Assembly: GCF_012271785.1 (NCBI RefSeq)
Contig: NZ_JAAWVT010000006.1
Span: 62,001 to 126,000 of the forward strand
Length of the DNA: 64,000 nucleotides
Direction: 5' to 3'
DNA from: Paeniglutamicibacter terrestris
Lineage (GTDB): Bacteria; Actinomycetota; Actinomycetes; Actinomycetales; Micrococcaceae
Below are positions 35,911-58,047 of the stretch, one piece after another. How positions within the stretch are numbered: the first letter of the stretch is position 1; every line of letters begins with the position of its first letter. A program made the translations under genes and the position numbers. The notes beneath the pieces are model-generated. The model was given only the letters and a program-made list of their open reading frames with translations. It did not search any database and was not told where the DNA came from.

Positions 35911-37116
35911 CTAGGCCGTAGGGAGCCCGGTGCCCAGGCGCCGGGCTCCCTGTGCGTCTAAGGCGTCGTTGAGCTCGGCCGGGAATCCGGAGCGCGCGAG
36001 GTGCTCGGCCACCAGCTCGGCCTGCGACTGCGGGGCGAGCCCTCCGATTGGCTGGTCCAGATCCAGATTGGTGGGGAAGGCATAGCCCTCCGCCGAGGCG
36101 GCAATGATGTTGTGCAGGGCGGCCTCCGAGGATCCCGCGGATTTGAGTTCCAGCAGCACCGGGTACAGGGCCTTGCTCATGGCCGTGCGGTCCACCGTTT
36201 CCATGGCCCGTCCGAAGGCGGAGGAGACCTGGAGCAGGTTTGCCATGCGCTTGATGTCGGCTGAAACGTTGGTGCCGGCTCCATGGAACAACGCCGGGTT
36301 GAAGAACGCTGCGTCCCCCTTGGACAAAGGTAGCTGGGCATAATTGGCCTGAAAGTATTCGGTGAAGTCCTCCCGGTGGAAGGCCAGGAAGCCCGGGGCG
36401 TACTTGTGGGAGTGCGGTAGGTAGAGAGTGGGACCCGATTCCAGGGGCATGTCGCAATGTGCGACGGCCCCCTGCAGGGTCAGCGCCGGGGTGAGCAGAT
36501 GGGCGTGGGCAGGGTAGGCAGCGGCCTGCTCTGCGGACATGAACCCCAGGTGGTAGTCGCGGTGCGCGCGTTGGGCGCTGCCGCCGGGATTCACCACATT
36601 GACCTGGCTGGTCACCTGGTAGTTGGGTCCTAGCCAGGCCTCCGACACCAGGGCGAGAATATCCGAGGCATAGTAGGCGGCGAAGACCTCCGGGTCGGCC
36701 AAGGCCAGTTTGTCTAGGGCGCCCCAGACCCTGTCGTTGGCACCGGGCTTGGCGAAGTGGTCCCCGCCGGTGACCCCTGCGGCCTTCTGGGCCGCGATGA
36801 GGTTGTCGAAGGCGGCAGTGGCGCGGTCCACAACGGACGTGTCGGGGAAGGCGCCCTTGAAGACCACGATGCCCGGGCCCTCGGTGAGCGCCTTGGCCAA
36901 TTCGGCCTGGACGTCGGTGCGCTCGGCCGGGTCGTCCAGGTAGGAATGCAGTCGCGGGCCGTAAATGAGCACGTTCTGCTCCACTGCATCGGCATACGGG
37001 TAGTCTTCCAACCGCGTGGCCGCGGACACGACCTGCTTGAAGTCCTCCAGATTGCAGGCTTCGGTGCGGAACCAACGGCTGGCGGCGGCGGAGGAGTAGG
37101 TCGGGGTGATGGTCAC
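35911..37116 (-). CDS. Phytanoyl-CoA dioxygenase (PhyH) family protein
   Basis: This 401-residue protein belongs to the PhyH branch of Fe(II)/2-oxoglutarate dioxygenases. The probable iron triad is HRD (in QRAHRDYHLGFM) plus the later histidine in FFNPALFHGAGTN, followed by SADIKRMANLLQ with the 2-oxoglutarate-binding Arg. PhyH proteins hydroxylate diverse small molecules. It is divergent from a LacI-type regulator with a palindromic site between them, so its substrate may be linked to that regulator's ligand. The 3' end overlaps the hairpin that terminates the convergent isomerase operon. The substrate is unknown. Confidence 0.82.
   Translation of the reverse strand: MTITPTYSSAAASRWFRTEACNLEDFKQVVSAATRLEDYPYADAVEQNVLIYGPRLHSYLDDPAERTDVQAELAKALTEGPGIVVFKGAFPDTSVVDRATAAFDNLIAAQKAAGVTGGDHFAKPGANDRVWGALDKLALADPEVFAAYYASDILALVSEAWLGPNYQVTSQVNVVNPGGSAQRAHRDYHLGFMSAEQAAAYPAHAHLLTPALTLQGAVAHCDMPLESGPTLYLPHSHKYAPGFLAFHREDFTEYFQANYAQLPLSKGDAAFFNPALFHGAGTNVSADIKRMANLLQVSSAFGRAMETVDRTAMSKALYPVLLELKSAGSSEAALHNIIAASAEGYAFPTNLDLDQPIGGLAPQSQAELVAEHLARSGFPAELNDALDAQGARRLGTGLPTA
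35920..35951. terminator. Terminator hairpin inside the 3' end of the PhyH gene
   Basis: AGGGAGCCCGG (35920-35930) pairs with CCGGGCTCCCT (35941-35951). It lies 25 bases after the isomerase stop and within the last codons of the convergent PhyH gene. Confidence 0.6.
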
Positions 37117-38663: not shown

Positions 38664-39680
38664 TTACGAAAGCTTGGTGACCTTCACCGTCTTGCCCGTT
38701 TTCGCGGACTCGAGTGCCGCATCGGCCAGTACCAGGGCCGCAACCCCGTCGTCGAAACTAGGCGAGCAGGGGCCGCCATTGCGGATGGCTTGCGCAAAGG
38801 CATCCAGCTCACGCTGGTAGGCCTGTGTGTAGCGTTCCAGGAAGAAGGGCATGTAAGCCTCGCCCTCGGCAGTACCGGCCGCTCCGTACTTGCGGACCGT
38901 GGTCGGTGTGATGTTTTTGGCTTCCAACATTCCCTCGGAGCCGAAAGCTTCCAGCCGCTGATCGTACCCGTAGGCGCAATGGCGGGAGTTGGTGATCGTG
39001 ATGAGCTCGCCACGGCTGCCACGCAACGTGACAACGACGGAATCATAGTCGCCCAGCTCCTCAATGTCGCTGCTGAACTGGTTGGAGCCCACTGCTGTGA
39101 CCTCCACAATGTTCTCCACGAAGAAACGGGCCATGTCCAGGTCGTGGATCGTCATGTCACGGAAAATTCCGCCAGAGGTTTCGATGTAATCGCGGGGAGC
39201 CGGAGCCGGGTCGCGGCTGATGATGGTGACCTGTTCCAACGATCCAATTTCGCCAGCGGCAACGCGCGCGTTGATGGATGCGAAGCTTGGGTCAAACCTC
39301 CGGTTGAAGCCGAGCATGATGGGCACGTTCGTGTCCTTCAACTTATCGCGACACTCCATGACAGTGGCCAGATCCAGATCGATGGGCTTTTCGCACAGGA
39401 CGGCGAGTCCATGGGCTGCGGCGCGGGTGATGAGATCGACGTGGGTGTTGGTCGGTGATCCAATAATCACTCCGTCCAGGCCGGGCTCGGCAAACACTTC
39501 TTCCGGATCCTGTACCGCACGGGCCCCGGTCAGTTCCGCAAGTTTGCGGGCGCCATCAATAAACGGGTCGGCAATGAGAACGAGCTCGATGTCCGGGTGA
39601 GCGGCAAGGTTGCGGGCGTGTACTTGACCAATCCGGCCTGAGCCGAAAAGTGCCATGCGCAACGGGCGAGGTGAAGTCAT
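38664..39680 (-). CDS. Inositol 2-dehydrogenase-like Gfo/Idh oxidoreductase
   Basis: This 338-residue protein has LRMALFGSGRIGQVHARNLA as the NAD motif, LCEKPIDLDL as the EKP motif and MTIHDLDMARFF as the catalytic Asp/His segment. Together with FNRRFDPSFASI these make it the most canonical IolG-type sequence in the window. The ATG is chosen 13 codons inside the longest frame because AAAGGA lies 9 bases upstream. It is the last gene of a three-gene minus-strand operon with a TIM-barrel protein and another Gfo/Idh. The operon lies beside the double-IclR gene, so its substrate may be the one that feeds the hydroxyquinol module. Confidence 0.87.
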   Translation of the reverse strand: MTSPRPLRMALFGSGRIGQVHARNLAAHPDIELVLIADPFIDGARKLAELTGARAVQDPEEVFAEPGLDGVIIGSPTNTHVDLITRAAAHGLAVLCEKPIDLDLATVMECRDKLKDTNVPIMLGFNRRFDPSFASINARVAAGEIGSLEQVTIISRDPAPAPRDYIETSGGIFRDMTIHDLDMARFFVENIVEVTAVGSNQFSSDIEELGDYDSVVVTLRGSRGELITITNSRHCAYGYDQRLEAFGSEGMLEAKNITPTTVRKYGAAGTAEGEAYMPFFLERYTQAYQRELDAFAQAIRNGGPCSPSFDDGVAALVLADAALESAKTGKTVKVTKLS

Positions 39681-39790
39681 AGGGTGTAGTCCTTTCAAGA
39701 ATGGGGAATCCGTATTCACGGCTGTCTAGGGCGGCAAGTGTGCTGCACCTGGAGGGTTTTGTGCCTAGGGCATGGGGTGGTTGCTGGGGC

Positions 39791-40672
39791 CTAGCCGGGG
39801 AAAGAAGCGATGGCGGTGTCGAAGGCCCGCCGGAGTCCTTCATGCAGGGGTGTTGCCCGGTGCTCGCGGGAAATGATCTCCACTCCCCACGGTCCCTGGT
39901 ACCCGGCCTCAATGGCCAGCCTGACGAATGTTGAGGTGGCGAATTCGCCGTGGCCGCAGTAAGCGCGATTGTTGATGGTGTCCTCGAACAAGGTCCCTTC
40001 GGTCTTGTGGAACCCGTCGTCGATTTCCACGGCGAACACGCGGTCCATCGGGGTGATCTGCCAGAGTTCCTCGTGCGACAGCCCCGATTTGGCGGTGTGC
40101 CAGATATCGATCATCAGCCCGGCCGAGGGGCTGTCCGACGCGGTCACCACCTGGATCGCCTCGGCGGTGGTGCGCAGGTTAGAGAACGGGGTGGCCTCCA
40201 GGGCTAACCGGATGCCGGCATCGGCAGCTTCGTCAGCGAGATCGGAGAAGGCGCTGGTCATCAATGCGTTGGGCAGTGGCTCATCGGCGTTGCCTGCTCC
40301 CACCTTGATGTGTCTGGCACCCAGCAGGTTGGCTGCCTCGAAAAGCTCGGCCTGGACCTTATCCGCGGTCTTGCGCTCTGCCCCGGTGGACCACCAACCG
40401 TTGATGAACTCGACTTCGATGATGTTGATTCCGGCGCCGCGGATCTGCCGTCCCAGCTCTTCGTAGCCGATCGTGTCGCGGGCTGCCAGCAGATCGTCAT
40501 GGACCAGGCCGATGCCGGCCCAACCGGTGGAGGCGACTGCGGCGATGCGTTCCGCAATGGTTAGTGGGCTGCGCTCTGTGGCACTAAGCGGCGCGGCATT
40601 CCCGGCGCTGGTCCAGCACGTGGCAATCAGTTCCGGAGATGGTTTGACGGGGTCAGTGTTCTGCATGTTCAT
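39791..40672 (-). CDS. Sugar phosphate isomerase/epimerase (TIM barrel)
   Basis: This 293-residue AP-endonuclease-like barrel shows GWAGIGLVHDDLLAAR, NIIEVEFINGWW, LALEATPFSNLRT, LMIDIWHTAKSG, FAVEIDDGFHKT and GVEIISREHR, the typical metal-binding strand ends. Its sequence differs clearly from the IolE- and IolH-like proteins here. The start codon overlaps the stop of the upstream Gfo/Idh gene (ATGA), so the two products are made together. Pairs of Gfo/Idh plus this type of barrel are known to oxidise a sugar hydroxyl and then eliminate a leaving group (C-glycoside and levoglucosan systems). That precedent supports, but does not prove, a dehydratase or lyase role. Confidence 0.82.
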   Translation of the reverse strand: MNMQNTDPVKPSPELIATCWTSAGNAAPLSATERSPLTIAERIAAVASTGWAGIGLVHDDLLAARDTIGYEELGRQIRGAGINIIEVEFINGWWSTGAERKTADKVQAELFEAANLLGARHIKVGAGNADEPLPNALMTSAFSDLADEAADAGIRLALEATPFSNLRTTAEAIQVVTASDSPSAGLMIDIWHTAKSGLSHEELWQITPMDRVFAVEIDDGFHKTEGTLFEDTINNRAYCGHGEFATSTFVRLAIEAGYQGPWGVEIISREHRATPLHEGLRRAFDTAIASFPG

Positions 40673-41769
40673 GGCACCTCAATGAGTGTTGGTTCGACGA
40701 TGTTGGCCATGCCTCCGGCGTTGTTGCTCGAGCGGTAGCAGGCATCAACAATGCGGGCCACGGTCAGGGCATCGGACACCGGGGCCACGTTGGGTGCACC
40801 GGTGCGAATGCTGTCGACCCAGCCACGCATCTCGGTGCGGAAGTTGCTGATGTTCTCCAGTTCGGGAAGTTCGGAGAACTTGTTGCCTTCGGTCCGCGCG
40901 AAGGGTGGGGTGAAGTAGCTTTCGGTCCATTCGGTCCAACCCGCCGGCAGCCCTGCGGCGGCCTCGTCCAAGTAAACGCGCAAGCGTTGGGGAAGGATGC
41001 CGATTTCGATCATTCCCCGTGTGCCGTAGACGAAGATGCGGGAGCTTTCGAACCATTCGAGTTTGTCGTGGCCGTCGAAGCTGAAGGTGGCTGACATATC
41101 GGGGTAGTTCAGCAACACCGATGCGGAATCTTCCCGGCTTTTTTCGTCGGAGAGTCGCGTGGACTTGTGCACTCGGGCGTTGACGGACTCCGGTGCGCCA
41201 AACATGTGGACCAGCGAATCAAGCATGTGGCAACCGAGGATCCACAGGACTCCGCCCATGTCGGCCGGTTGGTTGAGGTGGTCGGTGACATGCTCGCCGA
41301 CCATTGCCGCGCCTCGGGCCGAAATGGTGACGACCTCGCCGATGGCTCCATCGTCGATGAGCTTCTTAGCCCGCGTAATCGACTCTGCAAGTCGTACGTT
41401 GTAGCCCACCTGGACAACCTGCGTCGAGGGGACCCGGTGTTCGGCCTCGGCAAGCTGCATAAGGTCCAGAACCGTTCCGCCCCCTGGCTTTTCCACGACA
41501 ACTGACTTGCCGGCAGCCAATGCGCGAAGTGCGTGGGGGACCATGTCCTTGCTCTTGGAGTGGATCATGACGGCGTTGATCCGCTCGTCGTTGAGCACCC
41601 CGTCGATGTCGCGAAGCTCAACATCGTATTTCTCGGCGAAGTATCCCAGGCGCGGATCTTCATCGGCGGCGGCAACCACTTCCACGTTCTCAATTTCACG
41701 CAGCGCCCTGACGCGGGCGGAAGCATGCGGGTGGGTTATTCCAAGCAGTCCCACAACGATACGTTTCAT
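40669..41769 (-). CDS. Gfo/Idh/MocA family oxidoreductase
   Basis: This 366-residue protein starts MKRIVVGLLGITHPHASARV. The nucleotide-binding loop is unusual (GITHPH in place of GxGxxG). The EKP motif is present as VVEKPGGGT, and GVLWILGCHMLDSLVHMFG supplies the conserved His-Asp region. The ATG is 38 codons inside the longest frame and has AGGAG eight bases upstream. It leads the three-gene minus-strand operon. The promoter region holds a 7-3-7 inverted repeat (41887). The substrate is unknown; the modified loop may mean different cofactor geometry. Confidence 0.84.
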   Translation of the reverse strand: MKRIVVGLLGITHPHASARVRALREIENVEVVAAADEDPRLGYFAEKYDVELRDIDGVLNDERINAVMIHSKSKDMVPHALRALAAGKSVVVEKPGGGTVLDLMQLAEAEHRVPSTQVVQVGYNVRLAESITRAKKLIDDGAIGEVVTISARGAAMVGEHVTDHLNQPADMGGVLWILGCHMLDSLVHMFGAPESVNARVHKSTRLSDEKSREDSASVLLNYPDMSATFSFDGHDKLEWFESSRIFVYGTRGMIEIGILPQRLRVYLDEAAAGLPAGWTEWTESYFTPPFARTEGNKFSELPELENISNFRTEMRGWVDSIRTGAPNVAPVSDALTVARIVDACYRSSNNAGGMANIVEPTLIEVP

Positions 41770-41971: not shown

Positions 41972-43546
41972 TCAGGGCCGCGCGGGGGCTGGGGCCTGGG
42001 CGCCGAGGTACTCCGAGAGGTGGCGAGCTCCTTCCCGGGCAAGTTCAATTACGGTGTGACCGTCTTCCGGTTCCGCAAGAATGCCTTCGCGCAGGCCGCT
42101 GACGGAAAGGGAAGCGACAACGTGCCCCTTGTGGTCAAAAATCGGGGCGCCGATTGCCGCGATGCCCGGTGTTAGCTCATCATCACTCAAGGAGTATCCC
42201 GCGGAGCGGATGGCCTCGAGATCCGAGTAGAACTTCGTCCGAGCGCGCACGTCGAATTGGATGTCGGCATTCTGCGAAACGATGGTCGCGTAGTCTTCCC
42301 AGGTCTGCCGGTCCTCAAAGGCCAAAAGTGCACGGGGGGCTGCGCCGGTATGCAGTGGCAGCGAACCGCCCAGGGCCAGCAAGCGGCTGTTCACGCGCTT
42401 CCCGTCTACCCGTTCGATGCAGACAGCCCTAGTATTTCGCCGGATGCACATGAAGGCCGATTCGCCCGTTGCTTCATGAATTGAACGAAGGACGGGAACC
42501 GCTGCACGGCGCAGGTCCAGGTCGTTGAGTAGTTTGCCGGACAGTGAGATGAGTTTGCTGCCGATCCGGAAGGCGCCGCGAGGTCCCAGTTGCTCAACCC
42601 AGCCTGCCTCGGCGAGGGTGGCGAGCATGCGATAGACGGAACTGACCGGCTCCTCAAGAAGCTCGGTCAGTCGCGCGGAGGTCGAGATGCGCTCGTTGGC
42701 AAGTGCTTCCATGAGAGCGTTTGCTTTGGCAATGATCGATGAGCTGTTGCTCGTAGTGGTGCTGAGCACGCGCGCGGTTGGCTTTGGAGTGAAATGCACC
42801 ATGGCCTCGGTCAGGATCCTTGCGGCCTCGGCGATTACGTCCCTAGCCTCGTCCTGCTGGAGCAAGACTTGGTCCACGAGGCCGGCTGCCGTGAGTGAAC
42901 CGAATATCGTGCCATCGGGATTTAGCACCGGGAAGCTGATGGCCGCAATCCCGTCAACGACTTCATTGACCTCCAGTCGCCAGCCTTGGCGCCTGGTTTC
43001 CTCGAGGTGATTCCGCAAAGTGTCAGCGTCAATCGGTGTCCTTGAGGACAGCTTCTCGTACGGTGCTGCGCCTAGCACCCTTTCCTGGACTTCCTCGGGC
43101 TGGAAGGCGAGCAGTACATGGGAGGCTGCGCCGGCGTGCATGGGCAGAATGCGCCCGGAAGAAAGCTCGAATAGGTCGACATCGGTGGCGTCGACCTGCT
43201 CTAGGCATACCGCGGTCTCGTTGCGGGGGATCCAGAAGGATGCCGTGAGCCCCAGCTGGCGCTGGACGGCGGCAAGCTGCCCGGCCAGAACGTTTCGGTC
43301 AATGATTGCATCGGCCGCGGCCTCCCCGAGGTGCAGGATCTGTGTCCCGAGTTCAATGCGGCCGTCTTCGGAGCGTCGGACCAGCCCCGGCTGTTCCAAG
43401 GCGGAAACGATCCGATACACCGAGGGGCGTGGTTCCTCCACGGCCTTGGCCAATTCCGCCGACGTTGATGGCCCGAGGGTAGATATTTCATCGATGACCT
43501 GAGTTGCCTTCGCGACCAGCTGGATTACATTCGCTGCGGGTTTCAT
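41972..43546 (-). CDS. Tandem double IclR-type transcriptional regulator
   Basis: This 524-residue protein contains two complete IclR units in one chain. Residues ~1-255 have a winged helix (LGPSTSAELAKAVEEPRPSVYRIVSALEQ) followed by an effector domain ending in FPVLNPDGTIFGSLTAAGL. Residues ~265-520 repeat this with a second helix (ERISTSARLTELLEEPVSSVYRMLATLAE) and effector domain (APIFDHKGHVVASLSVSGL). Normal IclR proteins have one unit of ~250 residues. It lies between the Gfo/Idh operon and the divergent transporter-hydroxyquinol operon, so it probably controls both. IclR proteins often sense aromatic acids or sugar-derived ligands; the ligand here is unknown. Confidence 0.87.
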   Translation of the reverse strand: MKPAANVIQLVAKATQVIDEISTLGPSTSAELAKAVEEPRPSVYRIVSALEQPGLVRRSEDGRIELGTQILHLGEAAADAIIDRNVLAGQLAAVQRQLGLTASFWIPRNETAVCLEQVDATDVDLFELSSGRILPMHAGAASHVLLAFQPEEVQERVLGAAPYEKLSSRTPIDADTLRNHLEETRRQGWRLEVNEVVDGIAAISFPVLNPDGTIFGSLTAAGLVDQVLLQQDEARDVIAEAARILTEAMVHFTPKPTARVLSTTTSNSSSIIAKANALMEALANERISTSARLTELLEEPVSSVYRMLATLAEAGWVEQLGPRGAFRIGSKLISLSGKLLNDLDLRRAAVPVLRSIHEATGESAFMCIRRNTRAVCIERVDGKRVNSRLLALGGSLPLHTGAAPRALLAFEDRQTWEDYATIVSQNADIQFDVRARTKFYSDLEAIRSAGYSLSDDELTPGIAAIGAPIFDHKGHVVASLSVSGLREGILAEPEDGHTVIELAREGARHLSEYLGAQAPAPARP

Positions 43547-43800
43547 TTTTTACTCCTTGACTTGTCCATTCACGGCTTACCCATTCCTGCGGCGGCGATT
43601 AGTCCAGTTTTGCCTGTTCCCGACGAAAGGGAAAATCTTGGCACTGGGTTCAGTTAACCAGTCTCGCAGTGATTTGGATCATGTGATACTGTCTGAACAC
43701 GTTGTCCATTCTATGACACTAGACGTCGGTAGCTCGCACCAGAGAAAACCGAAGACAGCGCACATACGACAAGCAGCTCGTTTCAACTTCGGGAGAAGAC
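43547..43800. promoter_or_regulatory. Divergent control region of the IclR/hydroxyquinol module
   Basis: Two copies of TTGTCCATTC (about 43565-43574 and 43702-43711) lie in this 254-base gap between the double-IclR gene and the sugar-binding-protein gene. They share the TGTCCA half-site with the inverted repeat at 41887. A consensus -35/-10 pair for the plus operon is not clear to me. Confidence 0.4.
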
Positions 43801-44952
43801 ATGCAAAGACGAATCTTTCTGGCTGGTGCCGCAATGGCCGCAACCTTGCTGGTTTCAAGTTGTGGCGGGCCGGGTGCCACGGGCGGATCGACGAATGGGC
43901 AGAGCCAGGAACCCACTGACATCAGAATCGGGGTGTCGCTGACCAGCCAAGATGAGGAGCGCTGGATCACCGATGGGCGGGCCATCCAGAAGGGGCTGGA
44001 GGACCTTGGCTACCAAGTGGACCTGCAGTACGCGAACAACGACATTCCCACGCAGCAGCAGCAGGTGGACCAGATGATCACGCGCGGTGCCGATCTGCTG
44101 ATCCTTGCCCCTCTTGACGGCACGGCCCTGGCGCCGCAGCTACAGGCGGCGGTAAATGCCGAGATCCCCATCATTTCCTACGACCGGTTGATCCGCAACA
44201 GCCCGGATGTTGACCTCTACGTCACCTTTGACAACTACAAGGTAGGTGCGGAACAAGGCAAGGCGTTGTTGACCGGCCTAGGCATCCTGAACGAGGACGG
44301 GTCGGAAGGCAAGGCCAAGGGCCCGTTCAACGTCGAGCTCTTCGGCGGATCGCTCGACGACAACAACGCAACCTTCGTCTACGACGGGGGCATGTCCGTG
44401 CTACAGAAATACATTGACGACGGCACAATCGTGATCACGTCGGGCCAGACGAAGCTTTCGCAAATTGCCACGAAGGATTGGTCGCAGCAGGAAGCCCAGT
44501 CCCGCATGGACAACTTGATCACGTCCAGCTATTCCGACGGAACCTCCCTTGATGCGGTTCTGACCCCCAACGACAGCGTCGCCCGCGGCGCAATCACTGC
44601 TCTGGGCAACTCCGGTTACGGACCGAAGCACGGCACTGGCGCACATCCCATGCCGATTACCACCGGCCAAGACGCGGAGATCGCGTCGATCAAGCTGATC
44701 AACGACGATGTCCAGTACGCAACGGTTTTCAAGAACACCAAGCTGCTCGCGGCCCAGGCCGTCAAGGCGACCGAGAATCTGCTCAACGGCAAGGAACCGG
44801 ATGTCAACGACTCGACGTCGTATGACAACGGTGCCGAAGTGGTCCCCTCCTTCCTCATGCCGATCGAAGTGGTCTTCAAAGACAACATCAAGAAGCTCCT
44901 GGTGGACTCGGACTACTACACCGCGGAGCAGATCAAGACGGGCAGACTCTGA
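43801..44952 (+). CDS. ChvE-like sugar-binding lipoprotein
   Basis: This 383-residue extracytoplasmic solute-binding protein has a lipoprotein signal (basic MQRR, hydrophobic core, lipobox LVSSC with Cys21). The mature protein is a type I periplasmic-binding fold: DIRIGVSLTSQDEERW, ADLLILAPLDGTALAPQL, IPIISYDRLIRNSPDVDLYV, and LTPNDSVARGAITAL. This pattern matches ChvE/XylF-type proteins that bind aldoses and related sugars. It is the first gene of an operon with GguA-like ATPase and GguB-like permease genes. The exact ligand is unknown and matters for the hydroxyquinol hypothesis. Confidence 0.88.
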   Translation: MQRRIFLAGAAMAATLLVSSCGGPGATGGSTNGQSQEPTDIRIGVSLTSQDEERWITDGRAIQKGLEDLGYQVDLQYANNDIPTQQQQVDQMITRGADLLILAPLDGTALAPQLQAAVNAEIPIISYDRLIRNSPDVDLYVTFDNYKVGAEQGKALLTGLGILNEDGSEGKAKGPFNVELFGGSLDDNNATFVYDGGMSVLQKYIDDGTIVITSGQTKLSQIATKDWSQQEAQSRMDNLITSSYSDGTSLDAVLTPNDSVARGAITALGNSGYGPKHGTGAHPMPITTGQDAEIASIKLINDDVQYATVFKNTKLLAAQAVKATENLLNGKEPDVNDSTSYDNGAEVVPSFLMPIEVVFKDNIKKLLVDSDYYTAEQIKTGRL

Positions 44953-45013
44953 CGGCTTCCCGCGTTCATCCACAGGACCCACCCAATTACTAGAGAATCG
45001 ATAGGACTGCACG

Positions 45014-46552
45014 ATGCCTGATTACATTCTGGAAATGCGTTCCATCACCAAGAGTTTTCCCGGTGTGAAGGCGCTGGCTGATGTCACCTTCTCCGCGGAG
45101 CGTGGAGAAGTGCACGCCATTTGCGGTGAAAACGGCGCGGGCAAGTCCACGCTGATGAAGGTGCTCTCGGGTGTCTACCCCCATGGCAGCTACGGGGGTG
45201 AAATCCTCTTTGAGGGCAAGACCTGCGAATTCTCCGGAATTCGCGATTCCGAGCGCGCCGGCATCGTGATCATCCACCAGGAATTGGCGCTGGTTCCGCA
45301 CTTGTCCATCGCCGAGAACATCTTCCTGGGCAATGAACGCCGGGGCCGCGGAGGGCTGATTGACTGGCACAAAACCCAGGCCGAAGCCGCGGAGCTGCTG
45401 AATGCGGTGGGCCTGGGCGAGGAACCCACGACCCCGGTCGGCCAACTTGGTGTGGGAAAGCAGCAGCTGGTGGAGATTGCCAAAGCGCTGGCCAAAGACG
45501 TGAAACTGCTGATTCTTGATGAGCCGACCGCTGCCCTGAACGACAACGACTCCGCCCACCTGCTCGACCTCGTGCGCGCACTGCAGGAGCGCGGCATCAC
45601 CTCCATCATCATTTCGCACAAGCTTAATGAGATCGAGGCGACAGCCAACCGCACAACCGTGATCCGTGACGGGCAGACCGTTGAAACCCTGGACATGGTG
45701 GCACCCGACGTAAATGTGGACCGCATTGTGCGCAGCATGGTGGGCCGGGATCTCGAGTCCTTTTACCCGGAACGGAACCCGACCCCCGGCGAGGTGGTGC
45801 TGGAGGTTCGGGACTGGACGGTGCGCCACCCGCAACAGGACCGGCTCGTGGTTGACGGTGCCTCGTTCGAGGTGCGTGCCGGCGAAGTCGTGGGCATCGC
45901 TGGCCTTATGGGTGCCGGGCGCACCGAAATGGCCATGAGCCTCTTCGGGCGGTCCTACGGCCGATTCGTCTCGGGACGGACGCTGATACACGGCAAACCG
46001 GTTGCTCCCCGCACGGTTGCCGAGGCGATCGGGCACGGACTGGCGTATGTGACCGAGGACCGGAAACAACTGGGCTTGAACCTGCTCGATACGATCACGC
46101 GCAACGTCTCCGGAGCGGCGCTGCCGAAGCTGGCCAAGTGGGGCTTCGTGGATGCGAACCTGGAAGCGAAGCTGGCTAGGCACTCGATGGATTCTATGCG
46201 GATCAAGGCCCCGAGCGTCCAGTCGGTGGTGGGCAAGCTCTCCGGCGGCAACCAACAGAAGGTCGTCCTGTCCAAGTGGTTGCTGACTGGCCCCGACGTG
46301 CTGATCATCGATGAACCCACCCGAGGGATCGATGTCGGGGCAAAGTTCGAGATCTATACCCTGATCAACGAGTTCGTGGAATCGGGCAAGGCCGTCGTGG
46401 TGATTTCCTCGGACCTGTTGGAGCTGCTGGGCACCTGTGACCGGATCTACGCGCTCTCCGGTGGGCGGATCACCGGTGAACTTCCGGTGGCGGAAGCGAA
46501 TGAAGAAAAACTCATGACTCTCATGACCAAAGAAAAGGAAGCAATAGGATGA
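45014..46552 (+). CDS. gguA: Sugar ABC transporter ATPase, GguA/MmsA-like (two ATPase domains)
   Basis: This 512-residue CUT2-type ATPase has two fused ABC domains. The first has Walker [10 protein letters not shown] and Walker [12 protein letters not shown] with a [16 protein letters not shown] signature. The second has the degenerate Walker [10 protein letters not shown], the signature [15 protein letters not shown] and Walker [15 protein letters not shown]. This asymmetric pattern is typical of GguA/XylG/AraG. It energises uptake of the ligand delivered by the upstream binding protein. The start overlaps nothing; the end overlaps the permease start by four bases. Confidence 0.93.
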
Positions 46553-47781
46553 CTGTCACAGCCTCCCGCGGACCCAAGGGCGCCCTCGCCCAGCCTCCCG
46601 AAAAAAACGGCCTGGGCGAACTGCGCCTTGCCCTGACGCGGAACCTGCGCACCAGTGGAATCTACGTCGCCCTCGTGGCGCTGATTGCCTTGTTCGCCCT
46701 CATTACCGGCGGGGCTTCGTTGTCGGCCGGAAACGTTACCAACATCGTCTTGCAGTACTCCTACATCCTGGTTCTGGCCATCGGCATGGTCATCGTGATC
46801 ATCGCCGGGCACATCGACCTGTCGGTCGGCTCCGTCGTGGCCCTGACGGGAGCGATATCGGCGATCACGGTCATCAAATACGACCTGCCCTGGTGGGTCG
46901 GTGTCCTGGCGGCGCTGGCCACCGGACTGTTGATCGGTGCCTGGCATGGTTTCTGGGTTGCCTACGTCGGCATCCCAGCCTTCATTGTGACCCTTGCCGG
47001 CATGCTTCTATTCAGGGGACTGACCCTCTTCGTCCTGGACAATGTCTCGCTGTCGCCGTTCCCTGACGAATACGGGGTCATCGCCTCGGGATTCATCAAC
47101 GGATGGCTCGGCGGATACGGCTACGACGTATTCACCTTGGTTGTCTTCGCGCTCGGTGTCGTCGGGTTTGCCATGAGCCAGTACCGCTCGCGCAAGGCCC
47201 GCATGGGTTACCACCAGCCGGTCCCGCCACTTTCGCTGTTTGCCCTCAAAATCCTGGCCGTGGGCGTGCTCGTGATGGCATTCGCCTGGAAGCTGGCCTC
47301 GGCCCGCGGGTTGCCTGTCGTGTTGATCATGCTGGCCGTGTTGATCATGGCCTACACCGTGATGATGCAGCACACCGTGTTCGGCCGCCAGATCTACGCC
47401 ATTGGAGGCAACCTGGCCGCCGCCTCGCTCTCGGGCGTCAAGGTCCGTGCAGTGAACTTCTGGATCTTCGTCAACATGGGCCTGCTCTCGGCCGTGGCTG
47501 GCATCGTCTTTTCCTCACGCACCAATGGTGCCCAGCCGGGTGCCGGGAACATGTTTGAACTCGATGCCATCGCGGCGGCCTTCATCGGCGGCGCGGCGGT
47601 CACCGGAGGCGTTGGCAAGGTCGTAGGGGCCATGGCCGGTGGCCTGATCATGGCGGTCATGAGCAACGGCATGCAGCTGATGGGCATCGACCAGTCCCTG
47701 CAGTCGGTGGTCAAGGGCCTGGTGCTCCTGCTCGCCGTAGCCTTCGACATCTGGAACAAGCGCCGCGCCGGTGCCCACTAG
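46549..47781 (+). CDS. gguB: Sugar ABC transporter permease, GguB-like
   Basis: This 410-residue inner-membrane permease of the CUT2 (RbsC/XylH) family has about ten hydrophobic helices. The conserved [19 protein letters not shown] and [22 protein letters not shown] cytoplasmic-loop motif and [20 protein letters not shown] are diagnostic. The four-base overlap with the ATPase gene indicates tight coupling. It forms the complete importer with the upstream two genes. The next gene, maleylacetate reductase, begins 87 bases downstream with no strong terminator between, so the catabolic genes are probably cotranscribed. Confidence 0.92.
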
Positions 47782-47868
47782 GCCTTCGAACAACAATTCC
47801 GGAATACCACTGACGGTGGAACGAAAAACCATCTTGCACACGAAACATCCCACGGAGGAGTCCATTCA

Positions 47869-48948
47869 ATGACCAAGCAATTCACCTACGACGCACTTCC
47901 CATGCGAGTCCGGTTCGGAGCGGGTTCCCTGGCAGAGCTGCCCGCCGAGCTTGACCACCTTGGACTGAAGCGGGTCCTGGTCCTGTGCTCACCCGAACAG
48001 CAGGACACCGGCGACCAAATTGCCGGAATCCTTGGTGCACGTGCGGTCGGAGTCTTGGCCGAAGCGGTGATGCACGTGCCCGCCGAAGCTGCGCAACGCG
48101 CCAGCGACGAGGCCGCACGGGTAGGGGCCGACGGGTGCGTCACCGTTGGCGGCGGCTCGGCCATCGGCCTGGGCAAGGCGATCGCACTGAATCACAACCT
48201 GCCGATTGTTGCCGTGCCCACGACCTATGCGGGTTCGGAAATGACCCCCGTCTGGGGTCTGACGACCAACGGACGGAAGGAGACCGGCAGGGATCCTCGG
48301 GTGCTTCCCCGCAGCGTCGTCTACGACCCGGAACTGAGTGCGACATTACCGGCAGCGATGTCGGTGACCAGCGGCATCAATGCCATTGCGCACGCGGTCG
48401 AAGCCTTGTACGCGCCGGATGCGACGCCCATCATTTCCCTGATGGCCGAGGACGGGGTCCGCGCCCTTGTCGCGGCACTGCCGTCCATTGTGGAGAACCC
48501 CACCGACCTGGAAGCCCGGAGCAACGCCCTGTACGGGGCGTGGCTCTGCGGCGCTTGCCTCGGGGCGACGACGATGTCACTTCACCACAAGCTCTGCCAC
48601 GCACTGGGTGGAACCTTGAACCTTCCCCATGCCCAGACCCACACGGTTGTCCTGCCCTACGCGTTGGCATTCAACCAGCCAGCTGCCCCGGCGGCAAAGT
48701 CGGCACTGTCCCGGGCCCTAGGGGACGTGGACGATCCGGCATTAAAACTGTGGGAGCTGGCCCAGGAACTCGGGGCCCCGCGCTCGCTGGCCGAGTTGGG
48801 AATGCTGGAGGAAGACATCGAGCGGATTGCCGAACAAGTCACCAGCTACTCCTATGGCAATCCCCGACCCATCGATCTGGCCGCGGTTCGAGGGATTCTT
48901 CGTGATGCCTGGGCAGGAGACAAACCACGTGAAAATCCTTCGGCTTAA
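47869..48948 (+). CDS. Maleylacetate reductase
   Basis: This 359-residue member of the iron-containing alcohol dehydrogenase fold reduces maleylacetate to 3-oxoadipate with NAD(P)H, the step after hydroxyquinol ring cleavage. Diagnostic blocks are FTYDALPMRVRFGAGSL, VGGGSAIGLGKAIAL, VPTTYAGSEMTPVWGLT, HALGGTLNLPHAQTHTVVLPY and MSLHHKLCHALGG, which match maleylacetate reductases rather than general Fe-alcohol dehydrogenases. The presence of hydroxyquinol 1,2-dioxygenase two genes downstream confirms the pathway. It follows a sugar importer, which is an unusual setting. Confidence 0.93.
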   Translation: MTKQFTYDALPMRVRFGAGSLAELPAELDHLGLKRVLVLCSPEQQDTGDQIAGILGARAVGVLAEAVMHVPAEAAQRASDEAARVGADGCVTVGGGSAIGLGKAIALNHNLPIVAVPTTYAGSEMTPVWGLTTNGRKETGRDPRVLPRSVVYDPELSATLPAAMSVTSGINAIAHAVEALYAPDATPIISLMAEDGVRALVAALPSIVENPTDLEARSNALYGAWLCGACLGATTMSLHHKLCHALGGTLNLPHAQTHTVVLPYALAFNQPAAPAAKSALSRALGDVDDPALKLWELAQELGAPRSLAELGMLEEDIERIAEQVTSYSYGNPRPIDLAAVRGILRDAWAGDKPRENPSA

Positions 48949-49041
48949 CCACATGCCCGCGCGGCGTTCAGATCGGGACGCTGCAGCTCTCGCATCCCCG
49001 GTGCGCACCTGGCGCGCACCCGTACGTTCTGGAGTTTGATC

Positions 49042-49980
49042 ATGCCTTCGCAGCTAGCAGTTTCACAACAAATCAAGGTAGCGCCGATGGTGCTTGGCAC
49101 CAATGTCTTCGGCTGGACCGCCGATGTTGAGGTTTCCCACAGGATCCTCGATGGGTATGTGGCGGCGGGTGGAAACTTCATTGACACCGCTGACTCGTAC
49201 TCCTTCTGGGCCGAAGGGAACTCGGGCGGCGAGGCTGAAACCATCATCGGGTCGTGGCTGGCGCGGCGTGATGTCCGGGACGGGATTTTGGTGGCCTCCA
49301 AGGTCAGCCACCATCCGCAGCTCTCGGGGATGGCTCCGTCGACAATCAACGCAGCCGTGGACGGTTCGTTGACCAGACTGGGGCTCGATTACCTCGACAT
49401 CTACTACGCGCATTTTGATGATCCTTCCACCCCGCTGGTGGAGAGCATCGAGGCAATGTCGGGGCTGGTGGACCGGGGTAAGATTCGCTCGATCGGCATC
49501 TCCAACTATTCACCGGAGCGGATCACCCAGTGGCTTGAGATCAGCGAACGCGAAGGCTTCCACCTTCCCGTGGCTCTCGAACCCCAATATAACCTCATGG
49601 AACGCGACGTCGAGGCATCGCTCCTGCCGCTGGCGGAAAAACACTCCCTTGAGGTCTATCCCTACTATTCGCTCGCCCACGGATTCCTGACCGGGAAGTA
49701 CCGGAGCACACACGACGTCGACAGCGTTCGGGCGGCCGACGCTAAACGGTACCTGACGGCTCGCGGCGAAAAGGTACTGGGTGCCCTCGCGCAGGTATCG
49801 ACCGACCGCGCGTGCCCCTTCGCTCCGATTGCCTTGGCATGGCTGCGGGCGAAAACCGGGGTCACGGCTCCGATTGTCAGTGCGCGCACCGTGGCACAGC
49901 TCGAGCCACTGGTAGCCAACATGCATCTGGCCCTGACCGAAGGCGAAGTGCAGCTTTTGGACGAAGCTTCACAACCGTAA
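49042..49980 (+). CDS. Aldo/keto reductase
   Basis: This 312-residue (beta/alpha)8 NADPH-dependent oxidoreductase has the AKR pattern: VLGTNVFGWTAD, GGNFIDTADSYSFW (catalytic Asp and Tyr), LVASKVSHHP (Lys), YLDIYYAHFDD (His) and GISNYSPERI. It resembles the AKR families that reduce sugar or keto-cyclic aldehydes and ketones. I chose ATG 49042 because GGAG lies seven bases upstream; TTG 49036 is an alternative. It sits between maleylacetate reductase and hydroxyquinol dioxygenase genes, so it may reduce an intermediate on the way to hydroxyquinol. The substrate is not known. Confidence 0.88.
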   Translation: MPSQLAVSQQIKVAPMVLGTNVFGWTADVEVSHRILDGYVAAGGNFIDTADSYSFWAEGNSGGEAETIIGSWLARRDVRDGILVASKVSHHPQLSGMAPSTINAAVDGSLTRLGLDYLDIYYAHFDDPSTPLVESIEAMSGLVDRGKIRSIGISNYSPERITQWLEISEREGFHLPVALEPQYNLMERDVEASLLPLAEKHSLEVYPYYSLAHGFLTGKYRSTHDVDSVRAADAKRYLTARGEKVLGALAQVSTDRACPFAPIALAWLRAKTGVTAPIVSARTVAQLEPLVANMHLALTEGEVQLLDEASQP

Positions 49981-50022
49981 ACATCTTTGGTGCATGGCCA
50001 CCAACCACAAGGAGGAAACAAC

Positions 50023-50955
50023 ATGAGCAGTTCAATTGAAGAATCGCGTACGGCGGACGATGCCAGCCGGGCGGCAATTTCCCCGGCGCAGTCCGACGTT
50101 GAAGCACGACTGATCGAAAACGTTCTTCGGTCCTTCGAGCAATGCACCGAGCCGCGGACCAAGAGCTTGATGCAGTCGCTGGTGCGCCACCTGCACGCCT
50201 TCATCCGCGAGGTCCGGCTCACGGAAGCCGAGTGGGAAAAGTCCATTGAATTTCTCACAGCCGTCGGTCACATCACCGACGACCGGCGCCAGGAGTTCAT
50301 CTTGCTCTCGGATGTCCTGGGCGCTTCGATGCAGACGATCAACGTCAACAACGAAGCCGTGGGCAACGCCACCGAGGCCACCGTCTTCGGGCCGTTCTTT
50401 GTTGACGACGCACCCTTCATCGCCAATGGCGGCGACATTGCCGGTGCCGGTGTCGGACAGCCCTGCTGGGTGGAAGGCAGCGTCAAGGATGTGGAGGGAA
50501 ATCCCATTCCCAATGCACGCATTGAGGTGTGGGAAGCCGATGAAGACGGATTCTACGATGTCCAGTACACCGACGATCGGGTATCGGGCCGGGCACATCT
50601 CTTTAGCAACGACGCAGGAAGCTACAACTTCTGGGGTCTGACGCCAACCCCGTACCCGATTCCACACGACGGCCCGGTCGGCAAGATGTTGGAAACCACC
50701 GGCCGGTCGCCTATGCGGGCATCACACCTTCACTTCATGGTGACTGCCCCAGGGTTCCGCACCTTGGTGACGCATATTTTCGTGCGAGGTGACGAACTGA
50801 TCAAGTCCGACACTGTATTTGGCGTCAAGGACAGCCTCGTCAAGGACTTTGCGCACCAACTCCCGGGAACGCCGGCGCCCGACGGACGCGAACTCGCTGA
50901 TAGCGACTGGTCGAGGGTGCGATTCGACATCGTTTTGGCCCCCGAAGTGGCTTGA
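50023..50955 (+). CDS. Hydroxyquinol 1,2-dioxygenase
   Basis: This 310-residue intradiol dioxygenase cleaves 1,2,4-trihydroxybenzene to maleylacetate using non-haem Fe(III). The N-terminal dimerisation helices ([42 protein letters not shown], quoted in parts) are followed by the catalytic beta-sandwich. Family-specific blocks are [50 protein letters not shown] and [11 protein letters not shown]. The probable iron ligands are Tyr in FYDVQY and [10 protein letters not shown] and the two His in ASHLHF. Maleylacetate reductase in the same operon favours hydroxyquinol over catechol. An AAGGAGG Shine-Dalgarno fixes the ATG. It is the last gene, followed by a terminator at 51,119. Confidence 0.94.
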
Positions 50956-51118: not shown

Positions 51119-51157
51119 AAGGAGCCGGTTTCCCCGAGATGGGTGAACCGGCTCCTT
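51119..51157. terminator. Bidirectional terminator between hydroxyquinol operon and iolB
   Basis: AAGGAGCCGGTT (51119-51130) pairs perfectly with AACCGGCTCCTT (51146-51157), with further C-G pairing in the loop. It separates the convergent operons. Confidence 0.72.
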
Positions 51158-54166: not shown

Positions 54167-55348
54167 CTAGAGGGTGATGAGTTTTCCGTTGGCCTGAGCC
54201 GAGGCCGTCACCGCGTCCAAGATTTCCATGTTGCGCACGCCTTCATCGAAGGTGGCGCAACGCGGCAGCGAGTCGGCTTCCGGTACACCGGCAACCTCTT
54301 CGAGGAAGGCACGGGCCTGATAGGAAAAGGCCTCGTTCTGGCCGAATCCGACGCTCGGTGCATCCATGGGCAGACCACCGGACAGGTAGGGGTGCTCCGG
54401 GCCAAGAATGACCTGACGGTAGCCGTTCTGTGCGCTGTCGCCTTGGTTCAGGAATAGCTGGATCTCCGACGGGCGCCGCTGGTCGAAGCGTGCCGAGCCG
54501 TTGGCGCAGAAGACCTCGAAGATCAGCGAATTGGCATGCCCCGCGGCCACACGGGAGACTTCGAAGCCGCCGGAACCGCCGTTGGCGAATTCAGCGGAGA
54601 AGGCAGCGTAGTCGTCGTTTTCAACAGCCTCGAATGTATCGCTGACGGCTACATGGTCGTGACCCATGACGGCGCCCAGGGGAAGTGGGCGTTCCTTGAT
54701 GGCGGTGCTCAGCCGACCACCGCTGACTGCGGTGATGTCGCCGCAGAGGAATTCGGAAACGTAGGTCAAATGGCTGCCCACATCGGCCAGCGCTCCGGAT
54801 CCGGCACTGCCCTTGTATCGCCAGCTCATGGGGGCTGCCGGGTCGAAGCCGTAGTCCGTCCAATACCGGCCACTGAAGTGCAAGACGTTACCCAAGACTC
54901 CGTTGCGGATCAGGTCGCGGATATAGGCGATGCCCGGCGTACGGCGGAAGGTGAAACCGACTCGGGCGATCCCGGGGGCATTGGCTGCAAGTTCGGCCAT
55001 GGCACGGGCATCCTCCATGGTGTCGCTTAGCGGCTTTTCGCACAAAACATGCTTGCCTGCCGCAAGCAGTCCCTCGACGGCTTGGCGGTGAAGCGAATTG
55101 GCGATCACGACGCTGACAACGTCAATGTCGTCGGCCGCGGCAATGGCCTGCCAGCTAGTGTCAGTGCGTTCGTAGCCAAAGCGGCGAGCAGCAAGGGAGC
55201 CGAACTCGGGATTCATGTCAGCAATCGACACGAGCTTGATGGGCGGTAGGACGGGCGAGTAGAGGGTGGAGGCGCTACGGAAGGCGGCCGCGTGGGCCTT
55301 GCCCGCCATGCCGGCGCCGATGACGGCAACCCTGATTTCATTCGACAT
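54167..55348 (-). CDS. Gfo/Idh/MocA family oxidoreductase
   Basis: This 393-residue protein is longer than a typical IolG. It has IRVAVIGAGMAGKAHAAAFR, the EKP motif in LCEKPLSDT, RVGFTFRRTPGIAYIRDLI and LADVGSHLTYVSEFLCG. The region where IolG has His-x-x-Asp reads GSHLTYVSEF, so the acidic catalytic residue is shifted or absent. The domain resembles the 'Gfo/Idh with GSH' subgroup that acts on sugars. Its promoter has an IolR-like site over the -35 and a TGGAGCGCTCCA palindrome at the start, and it is divergent from a lacI-type gene. It is therefore a probable target of both regulators. Confidence 0.84.
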   Translation of the reverse strand: MSNEIRVAVIGAGMAGKAHAAAFRSASTLYSPVLPPIKLVSIADMNPEFGSLAARRFGYERTDTSWQAIAAADDIDVVSVVIANSLHRQAVEGLLAAGKHVLCEKPLSDTMEDARAMAELAANAPGIARVGFTFRRTPGIAYIRDLIRNGVLGNVLHFSGRYWTDYGFDPAAPMSWRYKGSAGSGALADVGSHLTYVSEFLCGDITAVSGGRLSTAIKERPLPLGAVMGHDHVAVSDTFEAVENDDYAAFSAEFANGGSGGFEVSRVAAGHANSLIFEVFCANGSARFDQRRPSEIQLFLNQGDSAQNGYRQVILGPEHPYLSGGLPMDAPSVGFGQNEAFSYQARAFLEEVAGVPEADSLPRCATFDEGVRNMEILDAVTASAQANGKLITL

Positions 55349-56757: not shown

Positions 56758-57753
56758 ATGTCCAAAAATCTTTCGTGGCGCACTATTTCGGCGACGCTGG
56801 TGCTGATTCCAGCACTCGGGTTGACGGCCTGCTCCGGTCAGGGTGGTCGCGCTCCGAGCGTGGATGTACCGGCGGCAGGAGCAGTTGCTGACACTCCGCG
56901 CCTTAAGATTGCCCTGATCACGCATGCGCCAGCTGGTGACACGTTCTGGGACATCGTACGAAAGGGGGCGGAGGCGGCCGCTGCCAAGGACAATATTGAT
57001 CTGCAATATCTCAATGATCCAGAGGGCGGTAATCAGGCTCAGCTGATCGAGCAAGCAGTTGATCAGGGTGTTGACGGCATTGCCGTGACCTTGGCCAAGC
57101 CCGACGCGATCGCTGGCGCGCTGGCCAAGGCGAAGGCGGCTGGCATACCGATTACGAGCCTCAATGGTGGAGAAGATCGTTACAAGGAGCTGGGCGCCTT
57201 TGCGAACTTTGGTTCGGACGAGCGGGCGGCCGGCGAAGCCGTGGGGGAGAAGCTTCTGGACGAAAACTACAGGAATCCTATCTGTGTGATTCAGGTCCAG
57301 GGCCATGTGGGTTTGGAAGCCCGGTGTGCCGGAGTGAAGTCAAAAATCCCGGCCACTGAAGTGCTTTACGTACAGGGAACCGACATGACGCAGGTTCAGT
57401 CGACGGCGACCGCAAAGCTGCAAACCGCCAAGGACGTGGATGTGGTCATTGGTCTGGGAGCGCCGATTAGCCTGACGCTGTTGAAATCGATTGCCGAATC
57501 GGGGAGTGCTGCCAAGGTCGCTTCCTTTGATATGAATGCCGAAATGGCTCAGAAAATTGTTGACGGTGAAATTCTCTTTACCGTCGACCAGCAGCCATGG
57601 CTTCAGGGGTATGCGGCAGTTGATGCTATTTGGCTTGACGCCCATGGTGGATTTGCCTTGGGTGGCGGAAAGCCGGTGCCCACGGGCCCGAGCATTGTTG
57701 ACAAGAACAATGCCGAAGCGGTGCTGGAGTTCGCCAAGGGCGGCATTCGGTAG
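56758..57753 (+). CDS. Sugar/cyclitol-binding lipoprotein, paralogue 1
   Basis: This 331-residue type I solute-binding protein has a lipobox LGLTAC (Cys25) after a hydrophobic signal. The mature part has LKIALITHAPAGDTFWDIVRKG, IAVTLAKPDAIAGAL, IPITSLNGGEDRYKELGAFANF and a C-terminal SFDMNAEMAQKIVDG. It resembles the periplasmic proteins of CUT2/FrcB-IbpA type systems. It shares roughly 70-75% of its residues by eye with the next gene. It has its own promoter, with an IolR-type site, and ends at a strong hairpin (57758-57801), so it is monocistronic. The ligand, perhaps myo-inositol or an isomer, is inferred from the site and neighbours. Confidence 0.87.
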   Translation: MSKNLSWRTISATLVLIPALGLTACSGQGGRAPSVDVPAAGAVADTPRLKIALITHAPAGDTFWDIVRKGAEAAAAKDNIDLQYLNDPEGGNQAQLIEQAVDQGVDGIAVTLAKPDAIAGALAKAKAAGIPITSLNGGEDRYKELGAFANFGSDERAAGEAVGEKLLDENYRNPICVIQVQGHVGLEARCAGVKSKIPATEVLYVQGTDMTQVQSTATAKLQTAKDVDVVIGLGAPISLTLLKSIAESGSAAKVASFDMNAEMAQKIVDGEILFTVDQQPWLQGYAAVDAIWLDAHGGFALGGGKPVPTGPSIVDKNNAEAVLEFAKGGIR

Positions 57754-57757
57754 GGTG

Positions 57758-57801
57758 CCGCGGGGTGGGGGGCTTGGCCTGATCTACCCGCCGCCCCGCG
57801 G
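57758..57801 (+). terminator. Terminator after binding-protein paralogue 1
   Basis: CCGCGGGGTGG (57758-57768) pairs with CCGCCCCGCGG (57791-57801) with one G-U pair. It begins 4 bases after the stop. Confidence 0.6.
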
Positions 57802-57892
57802 ATCACTCCGCTGAAATCCTGGAACTTTTCATGGCAAGATCCACGCCGGTGAAGCTGCTGTGAACCTCCTAAGGTTAGGGCTGATGTAAATA

Positions 57893-57936: not shown

Positions 57937-58047
57937 CAATGGAAAGGGAATAGCTGGTTGGCGACAAAGACGCCTTCGATTTTCGGCTGGAGTCCCTGAG
58001 GCCGCCTTGGGAGACAGGCCGGCCGACAACTCGAGGAGATTCGTGTA

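Follow-up and report, generated by a model that had tools for sequence, protein, structure and literature searches.

In the 64,000-nucleotide stretch of Paeniglutamicibacter terrestris DNA analysed here (contig NZ_JAAWVT010000006.1, positions 62,001 to 126,000; hereafter the window), two divergent operons at 38.7-51.0 kb may well form a single module in which a cyclitol is oxidised, dehydrated to hydroxyquinol (1,2,4-trihydroxybenzene) and then cleaved, with no hydroxylase involved; the chance of this is put slightly above even. The rightward operon encodes a ChvE/Ggu-type importer, a maleylacetate reductase (MAR), an aldo/keto reductase (AKR) and a hydroxyquinol 1,2-dioxygenase (HQD). The leftward operon encodes an IclR-type regulator, an atypical Gfo/Idh protein at 40669 (GFO), a triosephosphate isomerase-type (TIM) barrel protein at 39791, referred to as TIM, and an IolG-type inositol dehydrogenase (IDH). 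Based on the comparison of related loci, these genes seem to make up a conserved, recurrent module that makes and cleaves hydroxyquinol from an imported sugar-like compound, and the hydroxyquinol is very probably made without a hydroxylase.

The six genes of the rightward operon lie in one direction on the + strand, as the first-pass annotation had described them, and are separated by short gaps of 61, -4, 87, 93 and 42 bases, in that order. The open reading frames listed for AKR and HQD start with TTG; the ATG codons at 49042 and 50023 are better candidates for the start. Of the importer components, GguB scores above the curated NCBIfam cut-off, while the ChvE-like and GguA-like proteins fall slightly below theirs; the closest solved chains to the binding protein are 4wwh and ChvE itself (3urm). 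MAR is similar over its full length to solved maleylacetate reductases (346 bits to 3w5s and 344 bits to 3hl0). The best solved match of the dioxygenase is the hydroxyquinol 1,2-dioxygenase 1tmx (471 bits, 1.7e-140, residues 31-319 of 322), and judged by its sequence the ring-cleaving enzyme at 50023 is a true hydroxyquinol dioxygenase. Catechol and chlorocatechol enzymes provide its best NCBIfam models, yet with scores far under the cut-offs, and this assignment is ruled out by the 1tmx match. It is the only HQD match in the genome at E <= 1e-60. A pcaI-type gene (above cut-off) adjoins a thiolase gene (below the pcaF cut-off) elsewhere in the genome.

The single terminator earlier proposed for the end of this operon probably corresponds to a strong hairpin 3' of HQD, at about 51121-51155, which has a short T run and was not flagged by the consensus terminator scan. 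Since the hairpin sits between the convergent stops of HQD and iolB, it is probably shared by the two genes. The gap between gguB and the MAR gene was also inspected for a terminator that would split the operon there; the scan flagged no site, and the gap folds no better than its shuffles (z +1.2).

The linkage of these genes was followed in 295 genomes of the window's family, where HQD, searched at E <= 1e-60, is present in 37 genomes at 54 places. The window homologues were mapped on 53 regions, namely all HQD places outside the window's own genome, and ten of them have the same divergent arrangement, including GFO; three of these ten (L036, L037 and L049) have no ChvE/Ggu genes. GFO is found in 12 of the 295 genomes, every one of them among the 37 that carry HQD (hypergeometric 2.6e-12, uncorrected for kinship). 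The two share a region in 11 of the 12 genomes and lie on different contigs in one, Kocuria G273. A variant in L043 and L082 combines a sugar-type ATP-binding cassette (ABC) importer, short-chain dehydrogenases/reductases (SDRs), a MAR of the same clade, a zinc alcohol dehydrogenase, TIM and HQD.

A set of 25 GFO loci from a pattern-based, non-exhaustive scan of named species genomes gives a similar picture. Some of these loci are near copies of each other (MAR and HQD are identical in L103 and L104), and five are genomes of family-sample regions. TIM lies near GFO in 23 of the loci, MAR in 22 and HQD in 21, and all three are present together in 20, whose hosts include Paeniglutamicibacter, Sinomonas, Pseudarthrobacter, Arthrobacter, Rhodococcus, Mycobacterium, Corynebacterium, Geodermatophilus and Blastococcus. 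Although gene order and strand vary by lineage, the gene set is kept. Divergent operons are the arrangement in Micrococcaceae and Mycobacteriales, Geodermatophilaceae have a single run in the order IolG-TIM-HQD-MAR-GFO-IolG, and some Arthrobacter have importer-HQD-MAR-TIM-GFO with further genes interspersed. The importer also varies between loci, being of the ChvE/Ggu type, a major facilitator superfamily (MFS) sugar porter in the position of IolT2, or another ABC system; IolG-type dehydrogenases and MFS sugar porters recur as companions of the cluster. Chance neighbourhood is rejected by this co-occurrence and synteny, and the earlier proposal tying both the importer and the divergent Gfo/Idh-TIM operon to the hydroxyquinol genes is borne out by the recurrence of the unit across actinobacterial families. 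The cluster is nevertheless rare and patchy, since GFO, searched across the phylum with a strict threshold, matched one of 396 genomes, the window's own; GFO is present in 3 of 181 genomes of a Corynebacterium sample.

The linked regions lack an adjacent flavin hydroxylase. In the window no aromatic hydroxylase was seen among the annotated genes, annotation having covered part of it, in agreement with the first-pass annotation, and the 7 PF01494 flavin hydroxylases encoded in the genome all lie outside the window. A hydroxylase profile was built from five of these seven proteins (L086 and L091 left out), and the comparison of HQD neighbourhoods with and without a hydroxylase that had been suggested earlier was made with it. 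A flavin adenine dinucleotide (FAD) hydroxylase lies within 2.5 kb of HQD in none of the 12 linked regions and in 21 of the 41 unlinked ones (p = 0.0015 for the flavin class only, a value that overstates independence because the compared regions are related). The same profile has no match in the available DNA of the 21 named GFO loci that contain HQD.

The MAR and HQD of the cluster do not descend from a single source in all lineages. The trees omit seven second-copy regions (L092, L093, L094, L101, L105, L133 and L134). The MAR tree has 67 members, of which 31 are linked to the cluster. A long branch with full support sets 29 of these 31 together on one side, and the remaining two, from Corynebacterium (L102 and L130), group among the classical MARs. 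In the HQD tree, the well-supported branches require at least three changes between linked and unlinked. The dioxygenase of the Arthrobacter variant, checked in L100 alone, has its best matches to 6-chlorohydroxyquinol dioxygenase, PnpC and a hydroxyquinol dioxygenase. Since the same place has been refilled by different MAR and HQD lineages, it is suggested that the cluster needs hydroxyquinol cleavage. One entry in the trees, L106, is titled as a Rhodococcus metagenome-assembled genome and is given as Cyanobacteriota in the table of origins; it is probably a mislabelled bin.

Part of this gene set is known from Corynebacterium glutamicum, for which the statements below follow the available parts of two reports. 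The iol2 cluster consists of oxiC-cg3390-oxiD-oxiE (cg3389-cg3392; PMC9603128), and the divergent iolT2-rhcM2D2 operon is controlled by Cg3388, or IhtR (PMC7764795). IhtR represses rhcM2 and is freed by 1,2,4-trihydroxybenzene above 0.05 mM and, at higher levels, by hydroquinone and indole, while 5 mM resorcinol hardly frees it (PMC7764795); release by 1,2,4-trihydroxybenzene has been demonstrated for Cg3388 only. OxiC has no catalytic Asp (Asp179 is replaced by Ile) and an incomplete GxGxxG motif, did not enable growth on three inositols and is described as a protein of unknown function, Cg3390 is named a putative sugar phosphate isomerase, and expression of genes from both iol clusters reportedly rises during growth on myo-inositol (PMC9603128). 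The window resembles iol2, as far as the available text describes it, in that its IclR gene faces away from an importer-MAR-HQD operon, with GFO, TIM and IDH following the IclR gene, and its GFO resembles OxiC in the Asp-to-Ile replacement (Ile177 in GFO, position 179 in OxiC) and the altered GxGxxG motif. Corynebacterium L102 and L130 reproduce the published iol2 gene order. The window differs in having a ChvE/Ggu-type importer instead of a porter, an added AKR, and a MAR from a different clade than those of L102 and L130.

Each protein of the leftward operon has its own characteristics. The regulator is one chain made of two IclR units of about 255 residues each, which are 31% identical to each other; tandem relatives in L098, L102, L130 and L131 align with it over at least 510 of 524 residues, and it is 42% identical to the regulator of Corynebacterium L130. 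An IclR gene is divergent from the operon in 14 of the 25 named loci. No shared operator motif emerged from the divergent gaps, the commonest 8-mers occurring in 7 of 17 gaps at most. The predicted model of GFO (predicted local distance difference test, pLDDT, 81.0) has a Gfo/Idh fold near inositol and sugar dehydrogenases, and DgpA and levoglucosan dehydrogenase (LgdA) are among its sequence or fold relatives. In a 13-row alignment, with L103 left out, Ile177 stands nearly invariant at the position of the catalytic Asp, K94 and H181 are invariant, and the first motif reads GLLGITHPH in place of GxGxxG. A role of GFO as an ordinary inositol oxidant, which the first-pass annotation had given it, is disfavoured by the missing Asp. 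For the same reason the dehydrogenase at 38664 is the likelier oxidant: its EKP, D/H and GxGxxG-type motifs are all intact, its counterparts adjoin TIM and GFO in loci of the divergent type, and it is likely to be the cyclitol-oxidising enzyme.

TIM, the candidate dehydratase, belongs to the xylose isomerase-like TIM barrels. Its predicted model (pLDDT 84.6) is nearest in fold to 2g0w, followed by 5hmq, presumably a QuiC-type dehydroshikimate dehydratase, and by IolI (1i60). Its sequence similarity to QuiC is weak (63.2 bits on the NCBIfam model, cut-off 1200). Residues E159, D189, E216 and E265, presumably the metal ligands by comparison with IolI and QuiC, are invariant in 8 aligned sequences. 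A distant GFO/TIM pair (43% and 40%) is located in Nocardioides L116, in a stretch (1-12639) with genes for an importer, an SDR and an IolG-like protein. The stretch also encodes a true IolD (804 bits, cut-off 715), and HQD was not matched in the L116 genome at E <= 1e-40. Relatives of GFO and TIM thus also accompany hydrolytic opening of an alicyclic ring, and the L116 stretch may be a form of the cyclitol route that ends with IolD.

The proposed route, in which the kind of substrate, the sequence of steps and the parts played by TIM and the Gfo/Idh proteins are inferred, would start with the entry of a sugar-like alicyclic polyol, a cyclitol, through the ChvE/Ggu-type importer; in relatives an IolT2-position MFS sugar porter or a different ABC importer would take its place. 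Oxidation of the cyclitol to a ketone would fall to the IolG-type dehydrogenase at 38664. TIM, helped by GFO, would remove water from the ketone by beta-elimination, and the dehydrated ketone would collapse to hydroxyquinol. Hydroxyquinol would then release the IclR-type repressor, HQD would open the ring to give maleylacetate, MAR would reduce maleylacetate to 3-oxoadipate, and the pcaI and thiolase genes elsewhere in the genome would complete the route. By formula, a deoxyinositol (quercitol, C6H12O5) fits best as the simplest substrate: loss of 2H gives C6H10O5, and loss of 2 H2O then gives C6H6O3. With the ketone adjacent to the CH2 group, elimination would set the three oxygens at positions 1, 2 and 4. 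In the available text of the respective reports, acid dehydration of inosose to tetrahydroxybenzene is known chemistry (PMC11467972), and quercitol is reported from oaks and eucalypts (PMC8919412). Such a route is undescribed in the titles and the starts of abstracts among the matches listed from the open-licence literature. The idea in the first-pass annotation that a sugar-like or cyclitol substrate becomes 1,2,4-trihydroxybenzene survives in part: it agrees with the linkage, the lack of an adjacent flavin hydroxylase and the effector of IhtR as given in the available text, and the roles assigned to AKR and GFO call for revision. AKR, proposed as a compensating reductase, stands beside the cluster in 8 of the 25 named loci, all in Micrococcaceae, and no homologue was found in the clusters of Rhodococcus, Mycobacterium, Corynebacterium and Geodermatophilaceae or in the second Arthrobacter arrangement, so it is not a necessary part.

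Several observations weigh against the cyclitol route. GFO, the marker gene of the cluster, has no catalytic Asp; pairs of a Gfo/Idh and a TIM-barrel protein also serve in 3-keto-glycoside cleavage, and the nearest solved relatives of the ChvE-like protein are presumably monosaccharide binders. In C. glutamicum, according to the available text, inositol at 5 mM hardly frees IhtR (PMC7764795) and iol2 is not needed for growth on inositol (PMC9603128). The likeness to C. glutamicum itself is drawn from published gene order and features and from L102 and L130, not from C. glutamicum sequence. The linkage also has its exceptions. G085, the genome of L043, has the importer, MAR, TIM and HQD and no genomic GFO match at E <= 1e-60, so GFO is not indispensable there. 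Corynebacterium G813 (L131, 7165-14728) retains GFO and TIM along with two dehydrogenases, the regulator and the porter, but with neither MAR nor HQD adjacent; one HQD is encoded elsewhere in the genome. GFO and TIM are adjacent in Modestobacter L110 with no MAR or HQD on the 7.6-kb contig, no TIM was seen close to GFO in Klenkia L107, and in Kocuria L095 (genome G273) GFO stands alone, with TIM-MAR-HQD on another contig. In L081, a dioxygenase 66-69% identical to that of the Arthrobacter/Kocuria variant was found with no TIM, MAR or GFO.

The serious rival is that hydroxyquinol glycosides are the substrate. A glycoside (or C-glycoside) of hydroxyquinol would be imported, its sugar oxidised at C3 by a Gfo/Idh enzyme and the aglycone eliminated by TIM; HQD and MAR would use the freed hydroxyquinol, and AKR or IolG-like enzymes would reduce the keto sugar. 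This reading draws on the eliminations that Gfo/Idh and TIM-barrel pairs carry out, on DgpA and levoglucosan dehydrogenase as relatives of GFO, on the resemblance of the binding protein to monosaccharide binders, and on the levoglucosan dehydrogenase-like gene at 54167-55348 (261 bits, cut-off 650). It is considered unlikely, however, because the companions that recur in the mapping of window homologues are IolG-type dehydrogenases and MFS sugar porters, because GFO scores 40 bits on the NCBIfam levoglucosan dehydrogenase model (cut-off 650) and has no Asp, and because the GFO/TIM/IolD stretch of Nocardioides L116 requires no aglycone; moreover, the aglycone would need to be hydroxyquinol itself. 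Inositol could instead be aromatised in a redox-neutral way, as the first-pass annotation had proposed: a first dehydration would turn inosose into a dione, AKR or GFO would reduce the dione, and two further dehydrations would yield hydroxyquinol. In favour of this are the balanced formula, the score of the dehydrogenase at 38664 as that of a true inositol 2-dehydrogenase, the inositol catabolic island within the window, and the reported rise, in the text available, of genes from both C. glutamicum iol clusters on myo-inositol (PMC9603128). Such a route is nonetheless improbable, since AKR was not found in most lineages, homologues of iolD, iolC, iolA and iolB are already present in the window, and, in the available parts of the reports, iol2 is dispensable on inositol (PMC9603128) and inositol hardly frees IhtR (PMC7764795).

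The two halves of the cluster might also have separate jobs, with cyclitol uptake and oxidation sharing a regulator with an HQD and MAR that scavenge or detoxify external hydroxyquinol and hydroquinone. The response of IhtR to hydroquinone and indole as well, in the published part available (PMC7764795), and the lack of MAR and HQD beside the cluster in Corynebacterium G813 and Modestobacter L110 point that way. The association, however, outlasts rearrangement, exchange of the importer and replacement of the MAR and HQD lineages, and every one of the 12 family-sample genomes with GFO also has HQD, so that this division of labour carries only a small probability. Lower still, and close to dismissal, is the estimate for an ordinary resorcinol- or phenol-type pathway with its hydroxylase encoded elsewhere in the genome. 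Such pathways are the normal role of HQD and MAR, the genome does encode the 7 PF01494 proteins, and, as a further point against the cyclitol route, 20 of the 41 unlinked regions likewise have no nearby hydroxylase of the kind searched for; a P450 and an aromatic-ring hydroxylase C-terminal domain are among 10 sampled neighbours of such regions. The genome's own hydroxylases are only 25-31% identical to HQD-linked ones in the best-scoring matches, and a resorcinol pathway has no place for the importer and the IolG/GFO/TIM set. Resorcinol, moreover, hardly affects IhtR in the text available (PMC7764795).

The proposed cyclitol route has features in common with several known systems. Quinate and shikimate are converted to protocatechuate through the 3-dehydroshikimate dehydratase QuiC, and the proposed logic is the same: a hydroaromatic polyol is oxidised, dehydrated by an AP_endonuc_2 TIM barrel and aromatised, and the product enters the 3-oxoadipate pathway after intradiol cleavage. 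The window differs in that its TIM barely resembles the QuiC model, the proposed product is hydroxyquinol and the substrate has no carboxylate. The canonical iol pathway shares the IolG-type first step and the IolE/IolI-like TIM-barrel fold, but its ring is hydrolysed by IolD, while ring opening by the O2-dependent HQD is proposed here. Actinobacterial resorcinol/hydroxyquinol clusters share HQD and MAR leading to 3-oxoadipate, whereas the window type has no adjacent flavin hydroxylase and a MAR of a different clade. The LgdA and DgpA pathways for levoglucosan and C-glycosides share a Gfo/Idh oxidoreductase with a TIM-barrel partner; similarity to them is low, the Asp of GFO is missing, and the window has ring-cleavage genes attached.

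The surroundings of the two operons (Table 1) form an inositol/cyclitol island with iolC, iolD, an iolA-type dehydrogenase gene, an IolE-like protein, iolB and more IolG-like genes. IolD is encoded at 23652-25598, in an operon separate from the HQD unit. Between iolC and iolD, at 22713-23636, lies the gene of a Cgl0159-like protein (PF22649, 402 bits), perhaps the aldolase of this inositol operon, and a PhyH-family (phytanoyl-CoA dioxygenase-like) protein is encoded in the middle of the island at 35911-37116. A second importer at 56758-63343, with permease, ATPase, two rhizopine-type binding proteins below cut-off and two Gfo/Idh genes, suggests uptake of another cyclitol or aminocyclitol; a homologue of this rhizopine-type importer lies near the HQD cluster of Geodermatophilus L108. 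The levoglucosan dehydrogenase-like Gfo/Idh gene at 54167-55348 is divergent from a LacI regulator gene at 55481, and anhydrosugar catabolism is possible there.

Table 1. Features of the two divergent operons, in window positions
Feature	Position	Strand	Basis
Inositol 2-dehydrogenase, IolG type, OxiD position	38664..39719	-	TIGR04380, 395.1 bits (cut-off 355)
Xylose isomerase-like TIM barrel (TIM), candidate dehydratase/aromatising enzyme, Cg3390 position	39791..40672	-	PF01261
GFO, OxiC position, marker gene of the cluster	40669..41769	-	PF02894/PF22725; listed open reading frame starts at 41883
Tandem IclR regulator, IhtR position	41972..43546	-	IclR_C in two stretches; half-against-half alignment
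Divergent intergenic region, presumed operator/promoter	43547..43800	.	254 bases; function inferred from the IhtR paper
ChvE-like periplasmic binding protein	43801..44952	+	NF040907, 451.6 bits (curated cut-off 460)
GguA-like ATPase	45014..46552	+	NF040905, 807.8 bits (cut-off 810)
GguB permease	46549..47781	+	NF040906, 512.5 bits (cut-off 450)
MAR, clade tied to this cluster	47869..48948	+	Solved relatives 3jzd, 3w5s, 3hl0; tree
AKR, accessory	49042..49980	+	PF00248; distribution
HQD	50023..50955	+	1tmx match; Dioxygenase_N and Dioxygenase_C domains
Strong hairpin, probable terminator shared with iolB	51121..51155	.	55-base stretch, -33 kcal/mol, z -8.9

If the cyclitol route is correct, it would give a purpose to OxiC and Cg3390 of C. 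glutamicum. It would also account for the presence of an inositol porter in one operon with MAR and a ring-cleaving dioxygenase, controlled by a repressor that responds to hydroxyquinol. Plant cyclitols would be led into the 3-oxoadipate pathway by a route that might be taken for catabolism of resorcinol or inositol and that could offer a biological path from polyols to a benzenetriol. More broadly, it is conceivable, at a likelihood set somewhat short of even, that Actinobacteria have a dedicated aromatising catabolism of cyclitols, in which O2-dependent cleavage sends all six carbons to 3-oxoadipate and the OxiC family acts independently of the Asp. The OxiC family would then be a branch of the Gfo/Idh proteins with a new, Asp-independent aromatisation chemistry, and the module would connect the metabolism of sugar alcohols with that of aromatic compounds by a new type of link.

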